Positions 2-15,800 of a stretch of DNA of 64,000 nucleotides are shown in pieces; position 1 is the first letter of the stretch, and every line of letters starts with the position of its first letter. The position numbers and the translations under genes are program-made. Under the pieces are notes generated by a model. That model saw only the letters and a program-made list of their open reading frames with translations, did not search any database and was not told the DNA's origin. Origin of the DNA: Pedobacter nanyangensis (GTDB lineage Bacteria; Bacteroidota; Bacteroidia; Sphingobacteriales; Sphingobacteriaceae); contig NZ_QMHO01000001.1 of NCBI RefSeq assembly GCF_003313505.1, positions 620,001 to 684,000 on the forward strand, in the 5' to 3' direction.

Positions 2-898
2 TTTATCAACTTATTTACGCATTACGATAGGAAAGTAATACCAAATCAACCGAGCAAACCACGTAGAACCATAAGCTATATGACCAGTGCTGATGGTGTA
101 AACTACAGCGATTGGAAAGATTTGGCTACCATTGAAGAAGGTCATTACCAAACCAGTGGTAGTTTCGGCAATACGGTAGGAACTTCATTTAATTTCCACC
201 CGGTAAAAGAGGGCGAAAACGGACTAAATTACAGAACCAATTTATACTACATCCAAACCAAGGATTTTGGTAAAACTTGGGAGAGTGTGCGTGGTAAAAA
301 AGTACAACTACCCTTAATCCAAATTGAAAACGATGCATTGGTAAAAGATTACCATTCCCTAGGTTTAAACGTTTACATTAACGATGTAGAATTCGATCAT
401 CAAGGTTATCCCATCATCTTATTTATTACCAGTAAAGGCTACCAAGCTGGACCAGAAAACGCTCCCTACACCTGGAATACCGCAAGATTTACAGGAACGG
501 CATGGGAAATATTGCCCGTAACGACTTCTGATAATAATTACGATATGGGCTCTTTAATAGTTGACAAAAAAGGAATTTGGACTATTGTTGGCCCAACGGC
601 TATAGGGCCGCAGGCTTTTAATACAGGCGGAGAAATGGTCATGTGGACAAGCAATAATAAAGGCAAAACTTGGATGGCAAAATCATTAACAGACAGGAGT
701 GCCTATAACCATTCTTACGCTAGAAAGCCAGTAAACGTTCATCCAGATTTCTTTGCGTTTTGGGCCGATGGACATGGCAGAAAGCGCTCTGTATCGCATT
801 TATATTTTTCGGATAAAAAGGGAAATGTTTACCAGTTGCCAGACCAAATGACGGCAGATTTAATGAAACCTATTAAACTAAAAAAGCCAGTTAAATAA
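2..898 (+). CDS. BNR-repeat (sialidase-fold) protein, 5' end outside window
   Basis: The reading frame is open from base 2 with no start, so the gene begins before the window; 298 residues are visible. The sequence has aromatic and Asp-rich beta-propeller character (SADGVNYSDWKDL, SNNKGKTWMAKSL, KDFGKTWESV), the S/T-x-D/N-x-G-x-T-W Asp-box pattern of BNR repeats. The family contains sialidase-fold glycan-binding or glycan-cleaving proteins, often secreted. The next gene starts 2 nt after the stop, so it heads or continues the operon running to 7660. The signal peptide and any catalytic residues would lie upstream and cannot be seen. An internal ATG at 80 is not the real start because the BNR-type sequence continues upstream of it in frame. 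Confidence 0.75.
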   Translation, partial: FINLFTHYDRKVIPNQPSKPRRTISYMTSADGVNYSDWKDLATIEEGHYQTSGSFGNTVGTSFNFHPVKEGENGLNYRTNLYYIQTKDFGKTWESVRGKKVQLPLIQIENDALVKDYHSLGLNVYINDVEFDHQGYPIILFITSKGYQAGPENAPYTWNTARFTGTAWEILPVTTSDNNYDMGSLIVDKKGIWTIVGPTAIGPQAFNTGGEMVMWTSNNKGKTWMAKSLTDRSAYNHSYARKPVNVHPDFFAFWADGHGRKRSVSHLYFSDKKGNVYQLPDQMTADLMKPIKLKKPVK

Positions 899-900
899 CC

Positions 901-2394
901 ATGCTTAGATACCCAAAGCGGATAATTGTAGGTCTTGTAGTAGTATTTTGCTATGCCTGTAATCAAGATCAACTCCATTTGCAAACGATCGATAACGTGC
1001 AGCTGGAAAAAAACCTGTTGAAGGTAGAAGTATTAGCTAAAAACTTGGATGTGCCTTGGGATATTTGCTATGCCGACGATCATTCGCTTTTTATTGCCGA
1101 GCAAGGTGGCGCCGTTTCCAGGATAGATTTAGCTACGGGTAAAAAAAAGCAGTTGGTTAAAATAGCGGAAGTTTGGCGCAAACGTACAGCAGGCCTGTTG
1201 GGTTTAGTGGTGCATCCACAAGTACAAAAAAATCCTTACCTGTTTGTAAATTACACGGTGCAAAAAGACAGTTTGCTCATCATTAACCGTTTGGTTCGCT
1301 ACGAAATTACAGCAGACACCTTAAAAAACCCAAAAGTACTCTTAGAAGTAGATGGCTATACCGCACATAATGGTTCCCGCTTAGCTATCGGTCCCGACCA
1401 AAAATTATATTGGGCCACAGGCGATGCCTATTTTGGCGAAAAAGCGCAAGATCCGAAAAGTTTAAACGGTAAAATTTTGCGGATGAATACAGATGGTTCT
1501 GTACCTGCTGATAACCCAATACCGAACAGTTACGTTTGGGCATCGGGTTTTAGAAACATGCAGGGGCTAACATTCTCCAACAAAGGTTTGCTCTATACTT
1601 CCGAACACGGCGATGCTATTGAAGATGAAATCAACCTGATCGAAAAAGGGAAGAACTACGGTTGGCCAGCCATTGAAGGTAAAGAAGATTTGCCTGCAGA
1701 AAAGGCATTTGCCCTAAAACATCACACCACGCTGCCCATCAAATCTTGGACACCCGTTATTGCTCCTGCTGGTATCACGTATCACAATGGTAAAGGCATC
1801 CCCGAATGGGCAAATAGTTTACTGCTGACCACTTTAAAAGGCAAAAGTTTAAGGGTAATCAAACTAAATGACGACGGTAAGAGCGTAAAACATGAAGAAA
1901 TTTTCTTCGAGAAATATTATGGCCGATTACGGGATGTCTGCACCGATAAAGATGGTGCGGTCTACCTAGCTACCAGTAACCGAGATTGGAACCCTTCGCC
2001 AGGTTTTCCATTGCCAGGAGATGATAAAATCTTAAAAATTAGCAAAGCTGATAAAGCTACGCACAAAGTGCTAAGGGCAGAAGAACCAGAAACTGCAAAT
2101 CTTGTTTCGGGTAAAACGATATACCAGCAATATTGCGCCTCCTGCCATAAAGAAGATGGAACAGGTGTATTGGGAACTTTCCCGGCCTTGGCAGGTTCGG
2201 CAAAGGTGAAGGCTAGTCCAGAAACGCTAATCCCAATTTTATTAAATGGCATTAGCAAGGAACAAGCAGGTGCAGCAATGCCCGCATTTAATTTTTTAAG
2301 TAATGAAGAAGCGGCAGCAGTTCTTACTTACATCCGTCAAAACTGGGGTAATAAGGCCAGTGCCATTACACCTACACAAATCAAAAAACAATAA
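901..2394 (+). CDS. PQQ-dependent sugar (aldose/sorbosone) dehydrogenase fused to cytochrome c, lipoprotein
   Basis: The 497-residue protein has a lipoprotein signal with the lipobox Cys at residue 20 (VVFCYAC). A glucose/sorbosone-dehydrogenase beta-propeller follows (about 45-380; LDVPWDICYADD, GLLGLVVHP, SEHGDAIEDEINLI, GKNYGWP). The C-terminal class I cytochrome c domain carries a CASCH haem site at residues 412-416 and a candidate distal Met ligand at 460 (AAMPAF). Family members oxidise aldoses to lactones in the periplasm, and the fused cytochrome would pass electrons to the respiratory chain. It sits 2 nt after the BNR gene and 5 nt before the Nramp-like gene. The true sugar cannot be read from sequence, and PQQ itself is inferred from the family. 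Confidence 0.85.
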   Translation: MLRYPKRIIVGLVVVFCYACNQDQLHLQTIDNVQLEKNLLKVEVLAKNLDVPWDICYADDHSLFIAEQGGAVSRIDLATGKKKQLVKIAEVWRKRTAGLLGLVVHPQVQKNPYLFVNYTVQKDSLLIINRLVRYEITADTLKNPKVLLEVDGYTAHNGSRLAIGPDQKLYWATGDAYFGEKAQDPKSLNGKILRMNTDGSVPADNPIPNSYVWASGFRNMQGLTFSNKGLLYTSEHGDAIEDEINLIEKGKNYGWPAIEGKEDLPAEKAFALKHHTTLPIKSWTPVIAPAGITYHNGKGIPEWANSLLLTTLKGKSLRVIKLNDDGKSVKHEEIFFEKYYGRLRDVCTDKDGAVYLATSNRDWNPSPGFPLPGDDKILKISKADKATHKVLRAEEPETANLVSGKTIYQQYCASCHKEDGTGVLGTFPALAGSAKVKASPETLIPILLNGISKEQAGAAMPAFNFLSNEEAAAVLTYIRQNWGNKASAITPTQIKKQ

Positions 2395-2399
2395 ATTAC

Positions 2400-3602
2400 A
2401 TGGCAAATTCAAATAAATTCATATCCTTATTAAAAGGCTTAGGGCCAGGTGTTATTACAGCCGCCCTGGTTTTTGGTCCAAGTAAAATGACCATTACTTC
2501 ACGTTTGGGCGCCGAATTTGGTTATTCCATGCTGTGGATTGTGTTAGTAGCCATATTTTTTATGCTGGCATTTACTAATATGGGCGCTCGCATTGGGTTA
2601 AGCAGTAACGAAAGCTTGCTTGCCCAAATTCGCTTAAAATGGGGCAAAGGTGCTGCTATGGCTATTGGTTTAGGTGTTTTTTTGGTAACTACCTCATTTC
2701 AGGCAGGCAATTCTATAGGCGTGGGCATTGCCATTGCCGAAGCCAGTGGGACACCGGTTTGGCTCTGGGTGGTTTTGTTCAACGTATTAGGGATTGCCTT
2801 ACTTTTTTTTAGAAGTTTTTACAAAGTGCTAGAACGGTTAATGATTGCTTTGGTAGCGGTAATGCTCATTGCTTTTTTAACTACGCTTTTCTTAGCCAAA
2901 CCGTCTATTTCTGGCATTGCAGAAGGTTTTGTGCCAAGTTATAATCCAAACGCAGCTGTATTGCTAATTGCTTTTGTAGCCTCATGCTTTTCCATTGTGG
3001 GGGCTTTTTACCAGTCGTATTTAATGCAGGAACGTAAAAAATTAGGTGCCCAAGTGACTAACAAAAGCACAACAGGCATCCTGATTTTGGGTTTCATGAG
3101 TGCAGTAGTAATTATTTGTGCTGCTGCGGTGCTACATCCGCAGGGAATTAAAGTAAACAGTGCATCCGAAATGTCTAAAGCTTTGCAGCCTTTATTTGGC
3201 GAGTACGCCGCCAATCTGTTTTTGCTAGGCTTATTTGGAGCGTCTTTTTCATCGTTGGTAGGTAATGCTACGGTAGGTGGTAGCTTACTGGGCGATGCTT
3301 TTGGTTATGGCAGTCAGCTAAGTGCTAAAATGGTGAGGCTCTTTATTGCCCTGGTAATGGTTTGTGGCGCTACCATTTCTTTGGTATTTGGTAAACTGCC
3401 ATTAGAGCTTATCATTTTTGCCCAAAGCGTAACCATTTTCTTGGTGCCTTTTATCGGCTATGCCATGTATCAAATAGCCAATGATGAAAAAATTATGGGC
3501 GCTCGAAAAAACAGTAACTATATAAAATTAGTGGGTGCCATAGGCTTATTGCTATTAGTAGCATTGGCCGCATGGAATTTCTACAACATGTTCATTCAAT
3601 AA
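2400..3602 (+). CDS. Nramp-fold transporter lacking the canonical metal-binding motifs
   Basis: This 400-residue protein has about 11 hydrophobic helices. Its first helix aligns well with Nramp TM1 and the following loop (GPGVITAALVFGPSK, then AEFGYSMLW). However, the metal-binding DPGN of TM1 reads GPSK (residues 26-29), and the TM6 MPH site region reads GAFYQSYLM. The fold is therefore Nramp-like, but the residues that bind Mn2+/Fe2+ in MntH are absent. Its place in an operon with sugar dehydrogenase, epimerase and aldolase genes makes an organic substrate or a different cation (compare the NRMT Mg2+ branch) plausible. An automatic label of manganese transporter would be unsafe. Confidence 0.8.
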   Translation: MANSNKFISLLKGLGPGVITAALVFGPSKMTITSRLGAEFGYSMLWIVLVAIFFMLAFTNMGARIGLSSNESLLAQIRLKWGKGAAMAIGLGVFLVTTSFQAGNSIGVGIAIAEASGTPVWLWVVLFNVLGIALLFFRSFYKVLERLMIALVAVMLIAFLTTLFLAKPSISGIAEGFVPSYNPNAAVLLIAFVASCFSIVGAFYQSYLMQERKKLGAQVTNKSTTGILILGFMSAVVIICAAAVLHPQGIKVNSASEMSKALQPLFGEYAANLFLLGLFGASFSSLVGNATVGGSLLGDAFGYGSQLSAKMVRLFIALVMVCGATISLVFGKLPLELIIFAQSVTIFLVPFIGYAMYQIANDEKIMGARKNSNYIKLVGAIGLLLLVALAAWNFYNMFIQ

Positions 3603-3628
3603 CATTGATAAAAATATAACACGCAAAT

Positions 3629-4645
3629 ATGGAAGATTTAAAAGCGCTTGAAGAAAGATACACTCGTCCTTCGGAGGCTCTTATTGCAGATGTAAAAAAA
3701 ATTAAAGGCGATATTGTATTGCTCGGCATTGGTGGTAAAATGGGGCCTAGCATGGGCAAATTATTGGTAGATGCCTTGCGTAAAGCAGGAATGTCGAACC
3801 GTGTAATTGGCGTATCTCGTTTCTCTAACCAACAAGCAAAAGAAGAACTTTTAGCGGTAGGCATAGAAGTAATTGCTTGCGATTTGCTGAACGATGAAGA
3901 ACTTTTTGCTTTACCAGATGTACCAAACGTGATTTATTTGGCTGGCAATAAATTTGGTACCACTGGAAAAGAAAACTTTACTTGGGCAATGAATGCCTAT
4001 TTGCCTGGTAGAGTGGCCGAAAAGTATAAGAATTCGAACATTGTGGTATTCTCTTCTGGAAATGTATTGCCATTTGTTCCAGTTACCTCTGGCGGCGTAT
4101 CTGAAGAAACCACACCAGAACCCATTGGCGAATATGCACAATCTTGTTTGGGGCGAGAGCGCATTTTCGAGTTTTTTGCCCATAAAAACCAAACGCCAAC
4201 TTTAATTTACAGGTTAAATTACGCGGTAGATTTTAGGTACGGTGTAGTGATGGAAATTGCCAAAGCGATTTTGGCTGGTAAGGAAATAGATTTAAGTACC
4301 GAAAACGTGAATGTCATTTGGCAGGGCGATGCTAACGAAATTGCCATCCGTTCGCTGTTACATTGCGCTACACCTGCGAAAATCTTAAACGTAACCGGCC
4401 CCGAAATTTTATCCATCCGCTGGATAGCGCAACAATTTGCCAATATTTTTAACATCAAACCAAAATTTGTAAATGAACCTGTTGGTACGGCATTATTAAA
4501 CAACGCATCGGAGTGTCATCGCATTTTCGGTTATCCTAAAGTCACTATTAGGGAAATTATAGACATTACCGCTACTTGGTTAAGCAATGGTGGCGATGAG
4601 TTTGGTAAAGCCACACATTTTCAAGAAAGAGGAGGGAAATTTTAA
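3629..4645 (+). CDS. NAD-dependent epimerase/dehydratase-family protein with altered catalytic Lys
   Basis: The 338-residue protein has an N-terminal Rossmann motif (LLGIGGKMG, about residues 31-39), a VIYLAGNKFG segment and a Ser-containing VVFSSGNVLP strand as in extended SDR enzymes. The expected YxxxK catalytic pair reads YAQSC, so the Lys is Cys. It may bind NAD(P) but act by a modified mechanism. Its stop overlaps the start of the DapA-like gene (TAATG), indicating translational coupling and a shared pathway. The substrate is unknown; a sugar or sugar acid is likely from context. Confidence 0.75.
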   Translation: MEDLKALEERYTRPSEALIADVKKIKGDIVLLGIGGKMGPSMGKLLVDALRKAGMSNRVIGVSRFSNQQAKEELLAVGIEVIACDLLNDEELFALPDVPNVIYLAGNKFGTTGKENFTWAMNAYLPGRVAEKYKNSNIVVFSSGNVLPFVPVTSGGVSEETTPEPIGEYAQSCLGRERIFEFFAHKNQTPTLIYRLNYAVDFRYGVVMEIAKAILAGKEIDLSTENVNVIWQGDANEIAIRSLLHCATPAKILNVTGPEILSIRWIAQQFANIFNIKPKFVNEPVGTALLNNASECHRIFGYPKVTIREIIDITATWLSNGGDEFGKATHFQERGGKF

Positions 4646-5709
4646 TGACGCTTAGTAAAGAATTATATCAGCATTTACAGCAGGGAACGGTAATCCCTGC
4701 ACACCCGTTGGCATTAACCGAAAATAGAACTATCGACGAGAAAATGCAACGTCAACTCACGAGATATTACATAGAAAGTGGCGCAGGAGGTATGGCGGTT
4801 GCTGTACATTCTACTCAGTTCGAAATCAGAGATCCGGGAGTAAATTTATTTACCACCGTACTGCAATGGGCAGCAGAAGAAGTAACCAAGGCTAATCTCC
4901 AACGTCCGTTTTTAAAAGTGGCAGGTATTTGCGGCCCAACAGCACAAGCAGTTAGCGAAGCTAAAATAGCAGCTAGTTTAGGCTACGATATGGGGCTGCT
5001 TAGTATGGGCGGTTTACAAGGATGGACTGACGCACAAATTTTAGATAGGGTAAGGGAAGTAGCGCAGGTCATCCCGGTGTTTGGCTTCTATTTACAACCC
5101 TCGGTTGGTGGACGAATTTTTAGCTACGATTTTTGGCTACAATTTGCAGAGATCGAAAATGTATTGGCGATTAAGTGCGCTTCATTTAATCGTTACCAAA
5201 CTTTAGATGTAGTAAGAGCAGTTTGCAACAGCAGTAGGAGAGACGAAATTGCGCTTTACACCGGTAACGATGATAACATTGTGGCCGATTTACTAACCTC
5301 TTATCGTTTTACGGTAAACGGGAAGGAGGTAAAAAAAGGTTTTGTAGGTGGTTTGTTAGGCCACTGGGCAGTTTGGACACAAAGAGCAGTGACTTTAATG
5401 GAAGAAATTAAAGCTTACCGAAACAAGCCAACGGCTACCCAATTTGATGATTTGATGAGCCGAGGGGTAGAAATTACTGATGTGAATGCTGCATTGTTCG
5501 ATCCTGCAAACCACTTCCACGGTTGTATTCCGGGTATTCATGAAATGTTGCGTAAGCAAGGGTTGTTGAAAGGCATTTGGTGCTTAAATCCAGACGAGAA
5601 ATTATCTCTAGGACAACTAGAAGAAATAGATAGGGTACATCAAGATTATCCACACCTAAATGATGATGCTTTTGTGGCCAACTTTTTAGCACAGCAAGGA
5701 GGACTTTAA
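4645..5709 (+). CDS. Dihydrodipicolinate synthase (DapA/NanA)-family aldolase
   Basis: This is a 354-residue TIM-barrel class I aldolase or dehydratase of the DHDPS superfamily. The candidate Schiff-base lysine is K177 (NVLAIKCASF), preceded by a Tyr-containing strand (PVFGFYLQPSVGG). It is about 50 residues longer than ordinary DapA (about 290-300), mostly at the C-terminus, and lies outside any lysine-biosynthesis context, so it is not taken as dapA. Family members cleave or dehydrate 2-keto-3-deoxy sugar acids, sialic acid or related compounds. The start overlaps the stop of the upstream epimerase gene, and the next gene follows 1 nt after its stop. Cytoplasmic, with no signal peptide. Confidence 0.8.
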   Translation: MTLSKELYQHLQQGTVIPAHPLALTENRTIDEKMQRQLTRYYIESGAGGMAVAVHSTQFEIRDPGVNLFTTVLQWAAEEVTKANLQRPFLKVAGICGPTAQAVSEAKIAASLGYDMGLLSMGGLQGWTDAQILDRVREVAQVIPVFGFYLQPSVGGRIFSYDFWLQFAEIENVLAIKCASFNRYQTLDVVRAVCNSSRRDEIALYTGNDDNIVADLLTSYRFTVNGKEVKKGFVGGLLGHWAVWTQRAVTLMEEIKAYRNKPTATQFDDLMSRGVEITDVNAALFDPANHFHGCIPGIHEMLRKQGLLKGIWCLNPDEKLSLGQLEEIDRVHQDYPHLNDDAFVANFLAQQGGL

Positions 5710-5710
5710 G

Positions 5711-7660
5711 ATGAAGTTATTGAAATTGTTTTGCCTGTTATTCGCTTTTGCGTTTGTAAAAACGGCTAAAGCACAGCAGGATAAATTTGTAAACCATGGC
5801 CCGCAACTAACCGCTACCATGATACAGGGCAGTATTTTTTTGAAAGATGCCAAAGGTAATTTATTGCTATACACCGTAGTACGTGGCGAACCTGCACATT
5901 TATTGGCTTTTAATGTGAAAACCAAAGCTTTGGTGCTTGATGTTCCTTTGCCCAAATCAGATGGTGCTTGGGATTTAGCACAGTCTACCGATGGGACGCT
6001 ATACGTTCCGGGGGCAGGAGGAAAGCTGTTTAGCCACAAACCGGGCACAAAAAACATTACCGATTTGGGCAATGCCCTACCTAACGAAACCTACTTGTGG
6101 AATTTAACAGCTGGTAAAAATGGCGAAGTTTTCGGCGCTACTTACCCAGGTTGTAGGCTGTTCAGGTATCATCCAAAAGACGGGTTTACCGATTTAGCCA
6201 ACGGCCCCTTGGTAGCGGGTGAAAATTATGTGCGTAGCCTTGCTTTCGATACCAAACGGAATATACTTTACGCTGGCGTGGGTTCTCATGCGCATCTTGT
6301 GGCCATTAATTTAACTACCAAAGAGAAAAAAGAGATACTGCCAGCTAAATATCAAGACAGAGAATTTGTTTATAGCTTAGAAATGGTAAAAGGTACCGAT
6401 GGACAAGACAGATTATTGGCGCTGCTTACTGCTGGTCAAACCACTTTGGTTTACAACCTTGCTACACAAAAAGTAGAACAGGAAGTTGTTGATATGGATA
6501 TGAAGGCGGTAGGTACAGATGTGAAAAAATCGTTGCTATATTACACTTCAAAAGGTAGTTTAAAACGTGTTGACGCAAGCAAGAACTTTAATACGGCTAT
6601 TACTTTAGCAACGGATATTGCTGCGGCAACAGCGTTCCATAACGATAATGCCGGTAATCTTTATGTATTGACCGTTAAGGGAAAATTACTACATTACCAT
6701 ACTTCAACCAAAAAAATACAAATTACCGCATTAAAAATCCCATCGCAGCCGATACCAATTAATGCCATTATGTACGGCCCCGATAAAAAAGTGTGGACAG
6801 GCGGTTATCTGGCAGGTGGGCATGCAACGTTTGATCCCGCAACAAACAAAAACACTAAGTATGCGGGTTTAGACCAAACCGAAGGGATGTCCTTTATGGG
6901 TAGTAAAATCTATTTTGGCATTTATCCCAAAGGGAGATTTTACACTTATGATGTTACCCAGGCTTGGAATACCGTTAAAAGTAATCCGAAATTGATTTTC
7001 GAAGAGAAAGACCAGAGCCGTTCATTTGCTGTTCATGCCTTGCCGAAGTTACAAAAGGTTTATTTTGGTACTGTACCTGAATATGGTAAGTTGGGCGGTG
7101 TTTTGGCCATGTACGATGAAGCTAACCACAAACACACGTCATTTGGAGAAGTTTTAGAAAAGCAGTCGGTGGCCAGCTTGGCCAGTAAAGATGGTGTATT
7201 GATTTTGGGCGGATCTATTTCTGGTGGCTTGGGTGTAAAGCCTGAACGTAAGGAAGCAGAGCTGATGTTTTGGGACATGAAAACGAACCAGACCATCACT
7301 AAATTAGTGCCGGTTGCTGGTGCGGCTGCTATTACCTGTCTCATTAACGGCCCCGATGGGAATATTTGGGGTATCGCCGATGGGCATTTGTTCATCTTGG
7401 ATGTGGCACAACAAAAGGTGCTTTCCGTACAAAAACTGTATGATTATCCTCCTTTTGGCAGCCACATTTGGCGTAGTGCTTTTTTAGCAATTCATCCCTC
7501 TGGAGATATTTACGGAACGGATAATGGTAAGCTTTTTAAGCTATATCCATCCACTAAAAAAGTTGAATTTTTAGCAGAAAATGCGGGGCTAATGGTAATG
7601 GATCCAACTGGGAAAATTTACTTTAAACGTGGTACGGAGCTTTGGTCTTATACGCCTTAA
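5711..7660 (+). CDS. Secreted beta-propeller protein, function unknown
   Basis: The 649-residue protein has a Sec signal peptide (about residues 1-21, ending KTAKAQQ). The rest is repeated beta-strand blades with motifs such as DGAWDLAQSTDGTLYVPG, KNGEVFGATYPG and GPDGNIWGIADG, as in WD40/SMP-30-like or YVTN propellers. No catalytic residues are recognised. It is the last gene of the tight operon and likely acts in the periplasm or outside the cell on, or as a sensor of, the same substrate. A 216-nt gap with palindromes follows. Confidence 0.65.
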   Translation: MKLLKLFCLLFAFAFVKTAKAQQDKFVNHGPQLTATMIQGSIFLKDAKGNLLLYTVVRGEPAHLLAFNVKTKALVLDVPLPKSDGAWDLAQSTDGTLYVPGAGGKLFSHKPGTKNITDLGNALPNETYLWNLTAGKNGEVFGATYPGCRLFRYHPKDGFTDLANGPLVAGENYVRSLAFDTKRNILYAGVGSHAHLVAINLTTKEKKEILPAKYQDREFVYSLEMVKGTDGQDRLLALLTAGQTTLVYNLATQKVEQEVVDMDMKAVGTDVKKSLLYYTSKGSLKRVDASKNFNTAITLATDIAAATAFHNDNAGNLYVLTVKGKLLHYHTSTKKIQITALKIPSQPIPINAIMYGPDKKVWTGGYLAGGHATFDPATNKNTKYAGLDQTEGMSFMGSKIYFGIYPKGRFYTYDVTQAWNTVKSNPKLIFEEKDQSRSFAVHALPKLQKVYFGTVPEYGKLGGVLAMYDEANHKHTSFGEVLEKQSVASLASKDGVLILGGSISGGLGVKPERKEAELMFWDMKTNQTITKLVPVAGAAAITCLINGPDGNIWGIADGHLFILDVAQQKVLSVQKLYDYPPFGSHIWRSAFLAIHPSGDIYGTDNGKLFKLYPSTKKVEFLAENAGLMVMDPTGKIYFKRGTELWSYTP

Positions 7661-7876: not shown

Positions 7877-10411
7877 ATGAAAAGATTATTTTTACTGCTG
7901 TTGGCGACAATAACAGCGAGCTTTTATGCAAATGCCCAGCAAACGGAATTGTTGAAGAAAATTAGTGTCGAATGGCAACTGCATCAAAACGATTACCCAC
8001 AAAAGGGACAATTTACTGCATCGTTCGTTTTTAAGAACAACAGTAATGGCGCTGTAAATCTGCAAGATTGGGACTTATTCTTTTCGTACCCACGAGAAAT
8101 TGTTTCAATTACTACTGCAAACGCCATAGCCAAAGCACATGGGGGCGAGTTTAGGCAATTAAGTTTCATCAGCGGCAAGGCTACAATTGCGGCGGGGAAA
8201 AGCTTTACCATAAACTACGCAGCCAAAGGCAAATCAATGAATTTTACCGATGCGCCAAGTGGCTTGTATTGGGTAGCAAAAAACAATGCTCAAACTGTTG
8301 TTAATGTTAAAAACTTAAAAATCAATTTGGGTGAAAAGCACGAACAAGCTTTAGTAAAACAGGCGGCAGCGGCAGCTTTTGTTAAAAATAGCAATGTATC
8401 AGCATTACCTGCTAGCCAAGTAGTTAAAATATTGCCAAAACCAGTAAGTTATAAAGAAAATGCAGGTACGTTTATCTTATCTGCTGCGACAAAATTAGTT
8501 TTTGATTCAATTTTTGCTCAGGAAGCAGCGCTATTTAACCAAGAGTTAAATGCGCTACTGGGCAAAACATTGACGGTAGCTGTGGGTGCATCAACCGACT
8601 ATATTCAATTGAAGTTAATTAAGGGCTTGCCCGATGAAAATTATCAGCTATCAGTAGCCAAGGACAAAGTGATCATTTCGGCCTCTTCTACTTCGGGTAT
8701 TTTCTATGGTCTGCAGTCACTAAAAATGCTGATGCCACCAACTTCTTGGGCAAAAAAGCAAAAGCAAATCAGTATTCAAACTGTAGAAGTTGAAGATGCA
8801 CCGAGGTTTGGCTATCGCTCGTTTATGTTAGATGTGGCCAGGAACTTTCAAAGCAAAGCTGAAATTTTAAAACTGTTAGACCTTTTGGCACTCTATAAAA
8901 TCAACACCTTCCATTTTCATTTGAATGATGATGAAGGTTGGCGATTGGAAATCAAAGACTTGCCAGAACTTACTCAAGTAGGGGGAAGAAGAGGGCACAC
9001 CTTAAACGATGCCAATTACCTAAAACCTGCCTACGGTTCTGGACCAGACGTGGCAAAAGCACCCGGCAGCGGTTATTATACGCAGCAAGACTTTATCGAG
9101 ATCTTAAAGTATGCCAAACAACGCCACATTAATGTAATTCCAGAACTGGAAACTCCGGGACATGCAAGAGCGGCTATCAAAGCAATGGATAAGCGATACC
9201 GTAGCTTGATGAGCCAAGGTAAGCCCGAGGCAGCTCGCCAATATTTACTGCGTGATACGCTAGATCAATCCATATACCGCTCGGTACAAGGTTATACCGA
9301 TAATGTGATGAATATCGCCTTGCCATCAACGTACAATTTCATTGGCAAAGTAGTGGATGAAATGGCGGAAATGTACCGTTTGGCCGGTGCCACATTAAAA
9401 ACTGTGCATTTAGGGGGCGATGAAGTGCCTAAAGGCGTTTGGGAAAAATCTCCAGCCATTGCCCAGTTGATGCAGCAAGAGAGAATAACAAATTACGATG
9501 ATCTTTGGTACTATTATATCGGCAAAGCCAGCAAGTTGCTAAAATCAAAAAACTTGCAGATGGCAGGCTGGGAAGAAATCGCCATGCGAAAAGTAAGCAC
9601 AGCTGATGGGAAATCTACCTACATAGCCAATCCAGATTTTGTAAACGAGAACTTTCAGGTTTACGTATGGAACAACGTTTGGGGAGGGGGTAATGACGAT
9701 TTATCTTACCGCTTGGCCAACGCTGGTTACAACGTTGTGCTATCTGCGGTAACCAATTACTATTTTGATTTGGCCTATAATCAAAATTCCAGCGAACCTG
9801 GGCTTTACTGGGGCGGTTATGTAGATACGGACAAAGCCTTTTATTTTTCGCCATTTGATTACTACAAAACAGCAACAGAAGATGCCAGTGGAAATGTGTT
9901 AAATGCCGCTATTTTTAAAGGTAAGGAAAGATTAACGGATAAAGGTAAACAACATATTGTGGGCATACAGAGCCAACTCTGGTCTGAGAAAATTAGCGGA
10001 GCCGAAGCAATGGAATATATGTTGCTTCCTAAATTGCTAGGTTACGCAGAGCGAGCTTGGGCTGCAGAACCTGCTTGGTCAAAAGAAACGGATAGTGCCA
10101 AGTCTTGGTCGCACTATTTAGAAGACTGGAACCAATTTGCTAATCTTTTAGGGCAGCGAGAATTACCACGACTTCTTCATTACGCTGGTGGTTTTAAGTT
10201 TCGCATACCACCTCCAGGCGTGTCACTAAAAAAGGGGAAGCTAAATGCAAACATGCAGTTTCCAGGTATCCAAATTAGATACACTACCGATGGCAGTGAA
10301 CCAACTTTGCAGAGTAAAAGTTACACAGGGCCAATTGACGCTAAATCTACCATTAAACTCAAAACTTTTGTTAGACAGCAGGGCAGTAAAACCATCACCA
10401 TAAAAAAATAA
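7877..10411 (+). CDS. Beta-N-acetylhexosaminidase, GH20, secreted
   Basis: The 844-residue protein has a Sec signal peptide (about 1-21, YANAQQ). It continues with an N-terminal chitobiase/CHB_HEX-like domain (about 25-170), a GH20b domain (about 185-300), the GH20 catalytic barrel (about 310-750) and a C-terminal chitobiase/HEX_C-like domain (about 755-844; RYTTDGSEPT). The catalytic pair is D515-E516 in HLGGDEVPKGVW; FHFHLNDDEGWRLEI and PELETPGHARA are also diagnostic. It removes terminal beta-linked GlcNAc or GalNAc from glycans by substrate-assisted catalysis. The Gfo/Idh-like gene starts 56 nt downstream on the same strand. Confidence 0.93.
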   Translation: MKRLFLLLLATITASFYANAQQTELLKKISVEWQLHQNDYPQKGQFTASFVFKNNSNGAVNLQDWDLFFSYPREIVSITTANAIAKAHGGEFRQLSFISGKATIAAGKSFTINYAAKGKSMNFTDAPSGLYWVAKNNAQTVVNVKNLKINLGEKHEQALVKQAAAAAFVKNSNVSALPASQVVKILPKPVSYKENAGTFILSAATKLVFDSIFAQEAALFNQELNALLGKTLTVAVGASTDYIQLKLIKGLPDENYQLSVAKDKVIISASSTSGIFYGLQSLKMLMPPTSWAKKQKQISIQTVEVEDAPRFGYRSFMLDVARNFQSKAEILKLLDLLALYKINTFHFHLNDDEGWRLEIKDLPELTQVGGRRGHTLNDANYLKPAYGSGPDVAKAPGSGYYTQQDFIEILKYAKQRHINVIPELETPGHARAAIKAMDKRYRSLMSQGKPEAARQYLLRDTLDQSIYRSVQGYTDNVMNIALPSTYNFIGKVVDEMAEMYRLAGATLKTVHLGGDEVPKGVWEKSPAIAQLMQQERITNYDDLWYYYIGKASKLLKSKNLQMAGWEEIAMRKVSTADGKSTYIANPDFVNENFQVYVWNNVWGGGNDDLSYRLANAGYNVVLSAVTNYYFDLAYNQNSSEPGLYWGGYVDTDKAFYFSPFDYYKTATEDASGNVLNAAIFKGKERLTDKGKQHIVGIQSQLWSEKISGAEAMEYMLLPKLLGYAERAWAAEPAWSKETDSAKSWSHYLEDWNQFANLLGQRELPRLLHYAGGFKFRIPPPGVSLKKGKLNANMQFPGIQIRYTTDGSEPTLQSKSYTGPIDAKSTIKLKTFVRQQGSKTITIKK

Positions 10412-10467: not shown

Positions 10468-11448
10468 TTGATCATCCAAAGGCGCAATTTTATAAAGATG
10501 TTGACCTTGGGGAGTGCTGTTTTTGCACTTCCAAGGAGTTCCTTTGCCCACCAATCTGTACAAAAGCGGGTGGGGGTTATTGGCCTAGATACCAGCCACA
10601 GTCTTGCATTCACAAAATTGCTAAATGCCGAAAATGCCAGTTCGTCGTTGTTAGGCTATAAAGTGGTCGCCGCTTATCCTTACGGCAGTAAAACCCTAGA
10701 ACTAAGCAGGCAACGTATTCCTCTACAGGTTGAAGAAATAAAAAAATACGGTGTTAAAATTGTCAATTCCATTGCCCAATTGCTACAGGAGGTAGATGTT
10801 GTTTTATTGGAGACGAATGATGGTCGTTTGCATAAAGAGCAGGCATTGGAAGTAATTAAAGCTAAAAAACCGCTTTTCATCGATAAACCTTTGGCTGCAT
10901 CTTTAACTGATGGAAAATTCATTTTTGAAGAAGCAAAGAAATTTGGTGTGCCCGTTTTTTCCGCATCTTCTCTTCGCTTTATGGCTATGGTTAAACAAAT
11001 TAGGAGTAAAAAGCATGGAGAAGTGCTCGGAGCAGATACTTTCAGCCCGGCTACGATTGAGCCTACACATCCCGACCTATTTTGGTATGGAATACACGGC
11101 GTAGAAATGTTGTTTGCGGCGATGGGACCGAATTGTGTTTCAGTGAATCGGTTTTACACCCCTGACGCTGATGTGGTGGTAGGCAAGTGGGACGACGGGC
11201 GTATAGGTACTTTTAGGGGAATGCGTAATGGGAAGGCTGATTTTGGTGGCATTTGTTTCACCAGTGAAGGTAATTTTCAACTTGGCCCCTATTTGGGTTA
11301 TGAACCATTGCTTCTTGAAATTGTGAAGTTCTTCGAAACTGGTGTTGCTCCAGTGGAGGAAAATGAAACCTTGGCTATTTTAGCTTTTATGGAGGCGGCT
11401 GAAGAAAGCAAGTTCAAACAGGGGGCAACTATTAAACTATCATATTAA
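10468..11448 (+). CDS. Gfo/Idh/MocA-family oxidoreductase with Tat signal, TTG start
   Basis: The 326-residue protein has a Rossmann N-terminus (RVGVIGLDTSHSLAF) and an EKP-like DKPLAAS motif (FIDKPLAAS), as in Gfo/Idh/MocA NAD(P)-dependent sugar oxidoreductases. Starting at TTG 10468 gives MIIQRRNFIKMLTLGSAVFALPRSSFA, a twin-arginine (RRNFIK) signal. The frame is closed upstream by a TAG at 10450 and the first ATG (10498) would delete the twin arginines. The TTG start is therefore preferred, and the protein is predicted to be exported folded with its cofactor. Redox chemistry on an amino sugar released by the upstream hexosaminidase is possible but unproven. Confidence 0.8.
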   Translation: MIIQRRNFIKMLTLGSAVFALPRSSFAHQSVQKRVGVIGLDTSHSLAFTKLLNAENASSSLLGYKVVAAYPYGSKTLELSRQRIPLQVEEIKKYGVKIVNSIAQLLQEVDVVLLETNDGRLHKEQALEVIKAKKPLFIDKPLAASLTDGKFIFEEAKKFGVPVFSASSLRFMAMVKQIRSKKHGEVLGADTFSPATIEPTHPDLFWYGIHGVEMLFAAMGPNCVSVNRFYTPDADVVVGKWDDGRIGTFRGMRNGKADFGGICFTSEGNFQLGPYLGYEPLLLEIVKFFETGVAPVEENETLAILAFMEAAEESKFKQGATIKLSY

Positions 11449-11459
11449 TGATATAGATC

Positions 11460-12011
11460 ATGTCTAAAAACGTCTTTCAATTTACGGGACTTTCTGGTGT
11501 GGGAAAAAGCACCTTGTCTGCGGCGGTCAGCGAAAAATTAATGGCTAAAGGCTACCAAGTAACGGTGCTAGATGGCGACGAATTAAGAAAGACCATCTCG
11601 GCCGATTTGGGATTCTCGGAAGAAGACCGGTTAGCACACCTAACAAGGGTGGCTCAACTCGCTGCTAGCATAAATACAGATGTAATTTTAATAGCTGTGA
11701 TTAATCCTTACGAAAAAGGTAGGCAAGTATTTAGGGATTATGCTAACGCAAAGTTGATTTGGTTAAGATGTGGGTTGGCGGAGCTCAAAAAGAGGGACAC
11801 AAAAGGCCTATATCACAGAGCTTATTTACCCGATGGACATCCTGATAAGTTGACAAACCTAACAGGTGTTAATGCACCTTTCGAAAAGCCAATGGAGCCA
11901 GATCTGGTGATCGATACCGATCACCTTAACATAACGGATGCTTCGGCAGAAATTGGGAGTTATATTTTAAAGGAGATGCTAGTGCAGCAACGCTTCACAG
12001 AAACCATATAA
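11460..12011 (+). CDS. cysC: Adenylylsulfate (APS) kinase
   Basis: The 183-residue protein has the full APS-kinase signature: a Walker A GLSGVGKS (10-17), LDGDELRKTI (38-46), FSEEDR (52-57), a RDTKGLY-type substrate loop and a FEKPMEPDLVIDTD C-terminal motif. It phosphorylates APS to PAPS, the donor for sulfotransferases. No ATP sulfurylase or PAPS reductase gene adjoins it; a sulfotransferase starts 33 nt downstream. This points to sulfation rather than sulfur assimilation. It starts 11 nt after the oxidoreductase stop. Confidence 0.92.
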   Translation: MSKNVFQFTGLSGVGKSTLSAAVSEKLMAKGYQVTVLDGDELRKTISADLGFSEEDRLAHLTRVAQLAASINTDVILIAVINPYEKGRQVFRDYANAKLIWLRCGLAELKKRDTKGLYHRAYLPDGHPDKLTNLTGVNAPFEKPMEPDLVIDTDHLNITDASAEIGSYILKEMLVQQRFTETI

Positions 12012-12044
12012 GCTGGGGCCATTAGTAAGAAATGAATAATTAAC

Positions 12045-12869
12045 ATGAATCGAAAAATACATTTTATATCAGGATTACCACGTTCGGGCTCGACGCTTCT
12101 TTCTGGCATATTTACCCAAAATCCGTTAATCCATGCAGGTATGAGCAGCCCTGTGGCTTCACTTGTCAATGGCTGTCTAGAACAAATTGGTGCGGGCAGC
12201 GAATTCTACAGCTTCTTTGATGAGAAAAAGCGAAAAGCGATTTGTTCTGCATTGTTCAATGCCTATTACGAAGATATTCAAAAGGAAGTCATTTTTGACA
12301 CCAACCGCTTATGGACAGCCCGTATGCACCAATTAGTAGAAATGTTTGATGATTTTAAAGTTATTTGTTTGGTGCGTAACCCGGCCTGGATCATGGATAG
12401 TTTCGAGAAAATCTATCGTAAAAACCCTTTCGATTATAGTCGTATGTTCTCTGCGGGAAACCGTGCTACGGTTTATACCCGTTGCGAAAGTCTTTTGAAC
12501 GGGACAGTAGGTATTGCGCTTACTGCGCTTAAAGAAGCCTTTTATGGCGAGTATGCCGATAAGCTCTTGCTGATAGATTACGACTTGCTGGCCCGTTTCC
12601 CTGAAAAAACCATGCAGCTGGTTTATGATTTCACGGGCATGGCCTATTATCCGCATGATTTTGACAATGTAGACTACTCGCAAGATGAATTTGACTATAC
12701 CCTTGGCGTAAAGGGTTTGCATACCATTGGCAAAAAAGTAGAATTTAAACAGCGTCGCTCCATTTTACCGCCAGATCTGTTCCAGAAATATAGCGAAATG
12801 GCATTTTGGAAAGATACCGCAGGCAGTTCGGCAAATGTTATTGCCACTAAAGATTCGCAGGACCTATAA
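12045..12869 (+). CDS. PAPS-dependent sulfotransferase
   Basis: The 274-residue protein carries the 5'-phosphosulfate loop FISGLPRSGSTLLSGIF (PRSGST at 12-17). It also has a 3'-phosphate-binding strand and loop VICLVRNPAWIMDS (about 106-119), the two hallmarks of the sulfotransferase fold. A late RSILPPDLFQKY segment is typical of bacterial relatives. It transfers sulfate from PAPS to a carbohydrate, lipid or protein acceptor. The APS kinase gene directly upstream supplies PAPS, and the gene after it (17 nt away) is a large T9SS-secreted surface protein. The acceptor is unknown. No signal peptide, so it is cytoplasmic. Confidence 0.88.
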   Translation: MNRKIHFISGLPRSGSTLLSGIFTQNPLIHAGMSSPVASLVNGCLEQIGAGSEFYSFFDEKKRKAICSALFNAYYEDIQKEVIFDTNRLWTARMHQLVEMFDDFKVICLVRNPAWIMDSFEKIYRKNPFDYSRMFSAGNRATVYTRCESLLNGTVGIALTALKEAFYGEYADKLLLIDYDLLARFPEKTMQLVYDFTGMAYYPHDFDNVDYSQDEFDYTLGVKGLHTIGKKVEFKQRRSILPPDLFQKYSEMAFWKDTAGSSANVIATKDSQDL

Positions 12870-12886
12870 ATTAATTGCATATCGAT

Positions 12887-15800
12887 ATGAAATTTACAAA
12901 AGTAAGCAAAAAAGCAAGTGCCGCCCTCATGCAGATGGTGGTAATGGCTACTTCGTTTTCTGCCAGTGCAGCTGGTTCAGCGTATTATGTTGGCAGGCGA
13001 GGTGCCTATGCTCCCGGAAAAAACAAAAGCTATTTAGCTGAGCCCTCATTAGGAGCTGTACCTCACAATTTACTTAAACCCTACAAGGCGAAGAAAAAGC
13101 CAACTGGACCTATAAAAATTACCCATGCCAATCGTTTGGAAATTATAAGTTCGCCAGTAAAGGAACTTTTAGTGGTAGATCATAATATTAAAGACTACCA
13201 ACAGTTCAGTAGCTTGGCGAGGCCCGGAGTAGTCTTGGTAGAAATACCCAAAGGGGTAGATGGCTTAGCTTTTTTAATGGATAAGCTTGCTCAGTATCAA
13301 AATTTACAGGCAGTACATTTATTCTCTCACGCCAATGCAGGCGAACTGCTATTGGGCAACACACAGATAAACAGCGAGGCACTTGCCAACCATGCCGCAT
13401 TTGCTAAGGTGGTTAACAGCACGATGAAAGTCGGAGGCGATTTTCTGCTTTATGGCTGTGAATTGGGCAAAGGCGAAAAAGGCGATGAATTTTTAGAAAT
13501 CATCAAAAACAATACCCATGCAGACGTAGCGGCTTCAAATAACCTAACCGGCAACACTCAAAATAATGGCGATTGGAATTTAGAGGTGCAAAAAGGTAAT
13601 ATCGAAACGCAACCTCTGGCTAATTCCATAGCCATGAAAGATTTTACGGAGGTGTTGCAAAATGTTACTTTTCAGGTAGGGAGTTGGACTGTGGTTAATG
13701 CTGGGGCAAACAATGACAGATTTACGCCTGTAGGATCGAATAAATCATCATCTACCGCAATTGATGCCTTGGTTAAACAAACAGTAAATGGCGTTGAGCG
13801 TACTTTAAAGGTTGATGGAGCCTACAACAGTATTAAAGCCGATAATAGTTATGGAATCTCTTTTGGGTTTTCGGAAAGTGCACTTACCATTAGCTTTACC
13901 GATGGTAGTGTTTTTACGCCGGTTTCTATTGAAATTTATACTTATCAGGGAGATCCAGCTACCATTACCACTAATCTTGGCGGCAGTATAAACGCCAATA
14001 TTAAAGATGCCTGGCAAGTTGGCTATGCTGCGCAAACATTTGATCTTAGTGCATTACCTGCTGGTGTAACCTCGTTAACCATTACCAATAATTCATGGGC
14101 CCCATTTGTGATGAACACCAACAGTGGTTTCATGGGTGCGATAAAAAAAATAACGTTCAAAGATATTGGCATTACTGCTAATGCCAAACCTGTTGTAACT
14201 GCTTCAGGTGGTACTACGGCCCACTTAGAGGGTACGCCGGTAGTGATAGACAATGGCTTAACGTTAAGCGACGCTGATCATACTACCCTGGCTTCTGCAA
14301 CAGTAACTATTTCGGGCAATTTCCAGAGCGGGCAAGATGTATTGGCATTTACTAACAACGGCACCACCATGGGCAATGTAACAGGCAGTTATGCTGCGGG
14401 TGTACTTACCCTAAGTTCGGCTGGTAATAGCGCCACCCTGGCGCAATGGCAAGCTGCCTTGCGGTCGGTAACTTACAACAATACCGCCAGTGCGCCTAAT
14501 ACATCAAACCGTACCATCTCTTTTGTAGTAAACGATGGCACCGATAACAGTACCGCTACCACCAAAACAGTAAGTGTAACAGATGTAAATGATCCACCAA
14601 CCTTAACGGCTACGGCATTAAGCCCTACGTTTACGGAAAAAGGCACAGCAGTAAACGTATTTGCAGGAGCTGCAGTAAGCACGGTAGAAAGCGGGCAGGC
14701 CATTGTAAGTTTGCAAGTAAGAGTGAACAATCTTGCCAATGGCAGTAGCGAAATCTTAACTGTCGACGGTACAGATTTGACCTTAACGAATGGAACAACA
14801 GCAACTACCGCAACCAATGCCTTATCAGCGAGTGTATCAGTAACAAGTGGCACAGCAACGGTTACGCTTGCTAAAGCGGCAGGTATCAGTACAGCGGCCA
14901 CGCAAACACTGATCAATGGCATTACCTATAAAAACACCAGCAATTCTCCAACGGGCACTAGCCGTACCGTTACGTTATCATCAATAGGTGATAACGGGGG
15001 CGTAGCTAACGGAGGTATAAGTGCGGTTAGTGTTAACATTCCATCAACGATAACCATAGTTGCAATAAATGATGCGCCAACTTTGGCTGGCGGCCCATAT
15101 TCGCTTGGCAGTATCAATGCAAACCAAGCTTCAAATGGTACCCTGATAAGTACTATATTGGCCGGTTTAACTTATGCCGATGTCGATGCGGGAGCCCTTT
15201 CAGGCATGGCAATTACCGCAACTTCGGGTGGCGGCGCTTGGCAGTATTCTACCGATGGAAACACGTGGACCGGTGTAGGAACCGTGTCTGCTAGTTCGGC
15301 ATTGTTGCTAACATCCACTACGCAGCTACGCTACGTACCTAGTGGTACTGGTGCCGAAACACCAACCCTTACTTTTAGAGCTTGGGACAGAACTTCAGGC
15401 ACCGCATCTGTAAACGGCTCAAGGTCAACTTTAAGTACCGCTGCAAATGGTGGTACCACTGCTTTTTCTGCTGGTACAGCACAGGCTTCGCTAAGCGTAT
15501 TGGCCATACCAGTAAATACGGTCGCTCCAGTAATTACAGGAACAGCTACTATCGGTAATGCACTTTCTAGCACTACTGGTACGTGGACTAATGCCAGCAG
15601 TTATTCTTATCAATGGTACCGTGCAGATGACAATAGCGGCACCAACCTGGCTCTTATTGCTGGTGCCAACAGTGCAAGTTATACCTTAATCACCAGTGAT
15701 GCCCACAAATATCTACGGGTGGTGGTTACCGCTAACAACGGAACTGGCGGTACAACAACAGTCAACTCTAGCTATGTGGCTGTGGCTAACTCTGTTCCGG

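Follow-up and report, generated by a model that had tools for sequence, protein, structure and literature searches.

Canonical Nramp transporters, represented by DraNramp and the MntH proteins, have a DPGN motif in TM1, an MPH motif in TM6, and an Asp and a Glu in TM3. Among their relatives, the NRMTs have a metal site remodelled for Mg2+ (PMC10115441), and were set out in 2023 by Cellier together with 'orphan' outgroups (PMC10606218). In 2026, Ray et al. defined the Nramp-related proteins, a paraphyletic assemblage, as those without the metal and proton residues (PMC12873925). The same year, PxpT, an Nramp-family protein of C. glutamicum, was found to be required for growth on 5-oxoproline, its authors leaving a metal role open (PMC13274462). 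B. subtilis YcsG, which belongs to the PxpT group, has been reported to raise cellular Mn2+, as a Mn2+ importer (PMC10448178); this disputed claim keeps a metal role possible for the transporter described here.

The PxpT group, in which all 24 sampled proteins are without the TM1 Asp, seems to correspond to Cellier's 'orphan' outgroup, whose substitutions Y..N and VY fit the PxpT type and not the clade described below. PxpT-type relatives adjoin pxpABC in Bacteroidota, and one in the haloarchaea, on a Haloferax lucentense plasmid (5998-10834), lies just ahead of hydantoinase/oxoprolinase A and B genes, which encode a type of oxoprolinase other than PxpABC. Further afield, the APC-superfamily carriers ApcT, AdiC and LAT, which are of different families, share the LeuT fold and take organic substrates at the unwound TM1/TM6 region.

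Fold and site residues

The window, as the whole 64,000-nucleotide stretch of Pedobacter nanyangensis DNA analysed here is called, encodes an Nramp-related transporter within a sugar-oxidation operon of a SusCD sugar-uptake locus (Table 1). The first-pass annotation had placed its gene 5 nt downstream of a sugar dehydrogenase gene, with 26 nt separating it from the epimerase/aldolase pair that follows, and these coordinates proved exact, the gaps being 2395-2399, after the GSDH-type gene, and 3603-3628, ahead of the SDR gene.

Table 1. Features of the transporter operon, in coordinates of the window
Feature	Position	Strand	Basis or remark
BNR_4 beta-propeller protein	2..898	+	PF15892; begins upstream of the window; full length 486 aa
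PQQ-type glucose/sorbosone dehydrogenase (GSDH) with C-terminal cytochrome c domain	901..2394	+	PF07995, PF13442
Nramp-related transporter, 400 aa	2400..3602	+	PF01566; ATG start
TM1 unwound segment GPSK (residues 26-29), replacing DPGN	2475..2486	+	Alignment to DraNramp
TM3 Q101-A-G-N104, replacing DraNramp D131/E134	2700..2711	+	Alignment
TM6 S198-I199-V200, replacing M-P-H	2991..2999	+	Alignment
SDR-fold NAD(P)-dependent epimerase/dehydratase-like enzyme	3629..4645	+	Conserved partner at +1; without Pfam match
DHDPS/N-acetylneuraminate-lyase-fold class I aldolase-like enzyme	4645..5709	+	Conserved partner at +2; K177, Y149 invariant
Secreted beta-propeller protein	5711..7660	+	Recurs beside the SDR-aldolase pair in Paenibacillus, Mesobacillus and Streptomyces
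GH20 beta-N-acetylhexosaminidase	7877..10411	+	PF00728
Gfo/Idh/MocA oxidoreductase	10468..11448	+	PF01408

The window protein scores 224 bits against the Nramp profile PF01566 (cut-off 29.8), and its closest solved structures are Nramp/MntH proteins. Its AlphaFold2 model (mean pLDDT 82) matches outward-open DraNramp (6d91) with a Z of 45.5 over 384 residues and the NRMT structure EleNRMT (7qia) with a Z of 43.9, the APC-superfamily amino-acid carriers reaching a Z of about 26-30 at 11-14% identity. With DraNramp and the MntH of its own genome, it has the fold in common over the whole length at ~22% identity, and the TM10 Gln (Q342) is retained.

Within this intact fold, the principal metal ligands of TM1 and TM6 and the proton-path acids of TM3 are gone. 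Alignment to DraNramp confirmed the first-pass claim that the TM1 DPGN is replaced by GPSK. For TM6, where MPH had been read as AFYQ, the claim stands in that Asp, Met and His are all missing, but the register was wrong: MPH corresponds to S198-I199-V200, and AFYQ (residues 202-205) lies just C-terminal. The loss is also wider than had been noticed, as it extends to the proton-path residues D131 and E134 of DraNramp. No alignment restored the Asp and Met at the TM1/TM6 break; in DraNramp numbering, D56 is replaced by Gly, M230 by Ser, D131 by Gln and E134 by Asn in all 30 homologues compared from the window's clade. In these homologues the H232 position is Val or Ala, and TM6 carries S195 and S198-I/V199-V/A200, without the metal ligands of the A..MPH motif. 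At the N59 position, 26 have Lys; the other four, which branch early, read GPGS in TM1 and so have Ser there. As these four retain the same operon, the case for K29 as a universal anchor for an acid is weakened. Chance motif loss or a decayed gene is ruled out by the open frame and by conservation of the site across the 30 homologues, from at least 25 species.

The window protein belongs to PF01566 and has lost the TM1/TM6 metal motif as well as the proton-path residues of TM3, and on these grounds is Nramp-related as defined by Ray et al. It has the fold and a non-canonical site in common with the Mg2+-transporting NRMTs, but is not one of them, as these keep the TM1 Asp with the TM6 Met replaced, and EleNRMT additionally has an acid at the E134 position, whereas the window protein has Gly at TM1. 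The likeness to PxpT/YcsG is closer, and includes the PF01566 fold, the TM1 Asp to Gly and TM3 E134 to Asn replacements, and a place in an operon of catabolic enzymes, an organic acid being the substrate proposed for PxpT (PMC13274462). The pxpABC genes and the GPGT/VPY motifs that mark that group are nevertheless absent. Its pxpABC-linked relatives display GPGT, AYEAGN and TTVVPY, as opposed to GPSK/GPGS, SFQAGN and FSIV in the window's clade, and its partner is the 5-oxoprolinase PxpABC rather than an SDR and an aldolase.

On another contig, the P. nanyangensis genome encodes a separate, canonical MntH with DPGN and MPH, which passes the curated MntH models PRK00701 (578 bits, cut-off 430) and TIGR01197 (402 bits, cut-off 272.5); the window protein falls below both, at 105.9 and 43.6 bits, respectively. 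It does pass the broad NCBIfam model Nramp_1 (NF037982; 76.6 bits, cut-off 50), a 'divalent metal transporter' equivalog. As this model is passed alike by the window, haloarchaeal, PxpT-like and NRMT-like proteins, its name probably over-annotates, and 'Nramp family divalent metal transporter' is probably the wrong annotation for such proteins.

A clade of Bacteroidota and haloarchaea

In a maximum-likelihood tree, 25 Bacteroidota proteins, that of the window included, form one clade (support 100/99), which is joined by haloarchaeal proteins, one protein from a genome designated G171 and one from Neorhizobium (100/99). The window protein lies outside three other groups: the canonical Nramps (100/100), the NRMT-like proteins (100/99) and the PxpT/YcsG-like proteins (99/99). 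The Bacteroidota-haloarchaeal clade has 100/100 support after the longest branches are dropped and with another alignment, while the deep order of this clade, PxpT and the metal transporters has support of only 86/64 and 88/77. A scan of 84,980 species genomes recovered 26 relatives at ≥54% identity, from Pedobacter, Belliella, Dyadobacter, Terrimonas, Ferruginibacter, Niabella, Cyclobacterium, Rhabdobacter and Persicitalea. Among phages, the relatives amounted to two weak matches, and the literature searched contained no work on this transporter clade.

G171 also encodes a second Nramp-related protein, of 575 aa (11837-13564 of the locus; PF01566 46 bits; TM1 GGGS), whose gene adjoins Gfo/Idh genes and lies one gene downstream of the neighbour of the G171 transporter. 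It is another divergent, sugar-linked Nramp type.

Operon partners and importers beside the enzyme pair

The two enzymes downstream of the transporter were assigned by profiles and fold search, as neither has a Pfam match at 0.001, and the SDR none at 0.5 either. The fold of the aldolase model (pLDDT 92) is that of DHDPS and N-acetylneuraminate lyase, and K177 and Y149 are invariant; on this basis the enzyme probably cleaves or makes a 2-keto acid. The SDR stands far from any known family, and in its YxxxK motif (Y169-AQS-C173) the catalytic Lys is replaced by a Cys that is invariant across phyla.

Linkage of the transporter to this pair is strict. Apart from two cases where the contig ends and from the more divergent G171 protein, the SDR gene is directly downstream of the transporter in 27 of 27 loci, usually within 60 nt. 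The aldolase gene is next in 24 of 25 loci whose contig continues. In G171, the transporter and the SDR-aldolase pair are on different contigs. Six of 395 Bacteroidota genomes have the SDR, and the same six have the aldolase; the transporter branch is present in five of these and in no other genome. The chance of such co-occurrence is ~8e-11 with the genomes taken as independent (phylogeny ignored).

The order SusC, SusD, BNR_4, GSDH, transporter, SDR, aldolase, propeller is found in the window and in ten loci. Only 13 of the 30 loci have GSDH, and periplasmic oxidation is therefore not a step common to all. Genes for LacI regulators, enolase-superfamily, Gfo/Idh and M20 proteins, GH109 and GH88 occur at other loci. 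Regulators differ by locus: LacI in Dyadobacter and Neorhizobium, IclR near a haloarchaeal copy, or an ECF sigma/FecR pair, as upstream of the operon in the window. Haloarchaeal relatives adjoin genes for Gfo/Idh, sulfatase, heparinase and FAH-family proteins, and that of Halalkaliarchaeum is three genes from an SDR 48% identical to that of the window; the Neorhizobium relative adjoins a DHDPS-family gene and the LacI gene. The GH20, GH109, GH88 and heparinase neighbours hint at amino-sugar or uronate polymers. No riboswitch, of metal type or otherwise, was detected in the window at the Rfam gathering threshold, and internal promoters and terminators showed no excess over shuffled sequence.

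The SDR-aldolase pair, apparently an uncharacterised but widespread catabolic module, is also present in Paenibacillus, Mesobacillus, Streptomyces, Tistrella, Sulfitobacter, Nitratireductor, Aquisphaera and Nonomuraea, haloarchaea having the SDR only, and is often accompanied by Gfo/Idh, sugar isomerase, GNAT or beta-propeller genes. In Paenibacillus and Streptomyces plasmid records it lies beside carbohydrate-type ABC importers, in those of Tistrella and Sulfitobacter beside other ABC importers, and in that of Nitratireductor beside a tripartite tricarboxylate transporter and a mandelate-racemase-like enzyme. By tblastn, the pair stretches of these five genera contain no Nramp relative; no transporter was seen near the pair in Mesobacillus or Aquisphaera. 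As other importers stand beside the pair where the Nramp relative is missing, this suggests that the latter takes the place of an organic-solute importer.

Candidate substrates

Of the annotated neighbours in the window, none was recognised as an inner-membrane importer, so import is the unfilled role in the operon. Genetic linkage to a pathway is not in itself proof that the protein transports the pathway's substrate. Taken with the emptied site and the importers found beside the pair elsewhere, it points to an organic and probably acidic solute, and we infer inward, ion-coupled transport: the window protein probably imports a sugar-derived organic acid, driven by protons or sodium. That it carries a molecule derived from sugar, as opposed to a metal, is very probable. 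It would be an inner-membrane secondary carrier of LeuT fold, in the non-canonical, Nramp-related part of PF01566, taking up an organic, sugar-derived product of the SusCD locus, with an aldonate- or uronate-like acid as the likeliest candidate. Periplasmic hydrolases and the PQQ dehydrogenase could produce such an acid, which once imported would be degraded by the SDR and class I aldolase encoded downstream. The TM1/TM6 cavity, emptied of metal ligands (G26, K29 or Ser, S198, no His), may offer room for an organic substrate, and, as the canonical proton path is gone, the driving ion may be either H+ or Na+. The first-pass annotation had proposed a separate branch with a different substrate, perhaps a sugar acid or another cation. 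The branch is supported by the phylogeny, the site residues and the strict operon across genera and phyla, and of the two substrates the organic-solute importers beside the pair, together with PxpT, favour the sugar-derived acid.

The same pathway could instead be fed by a neutral sugar-derived compound, such as a lactone, keto-sugar or oligosaccharide. The carbohydrate-type ABC importers of Paenibacillus and Streptomyces would suit such a compound, as would the frequency of Gfo/Idh and sugar isomerase neighbours. It is nonetheless unlikely, given the tripartite tricarboxylate transporter of Nitratireductor, an aldolase fold that works on 2-keto acids, and the acidic nature of 5-oxoproline, the sole organic-solute precedent in the family.

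A transporter still devoted to a divalent cation (Mn2+, Mg2+ or Ca2+) through a remodelled site, and supplying a metal cofactor for the operon enzymes, is possible but quite unlikely. The matches to PF01566 and Nramp_1, the Mn2+ import reported for YcsG, and the precedent of the NRMTs for remodelling towards Mg2+ are in keeping with it. Against this, the TM1 Asp is kept in the aligned NRMTs, canonical Nramps and NRAT (Asp66), and is missing in all 30 homologues of the window's clade, with the TM3 acids and TM6 Met/His also lost; the genome already has its MntH, and the same pathway elsewhere stands beside importers of organic solutes. LeuT-fold carriers may run in either direction, and in plants the Nramp-like protein EIN2 acts in signalling, but export of a pathway product or by-product, or a sensor or regulator in place of a carrier, is very improbable here, with the import step unfilled and no additional signalling domain in the 400 aa.

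If the carriage of a sugar acid is correct, organic solutes would be carried by at least two branches of the Nramp family, a point relevant to the origin of metal selectivity and proton coupling, and the missing inner-membrane import step would be supplied for a conserved SDR and aldolase sugar-acid module of several phyla. A broader proposal, tentative and doubtful as it stands, is that the clade in Bacteroidota, haloarchaea and perhaps rhizobia consists of sugar-acid carriers in the Nramp fold and that, with PxpT, it would mark the Nramp lineage as having begun with organic-acid transporters, metal transport arising later on the branch to NRMTs and canonical Nramps.

After the operon, the window continues at 11460-12869 with APS-kinase-like and sulfotransferase genes, followed by a gene for a 1445-aa DUF4347 secreted protein.
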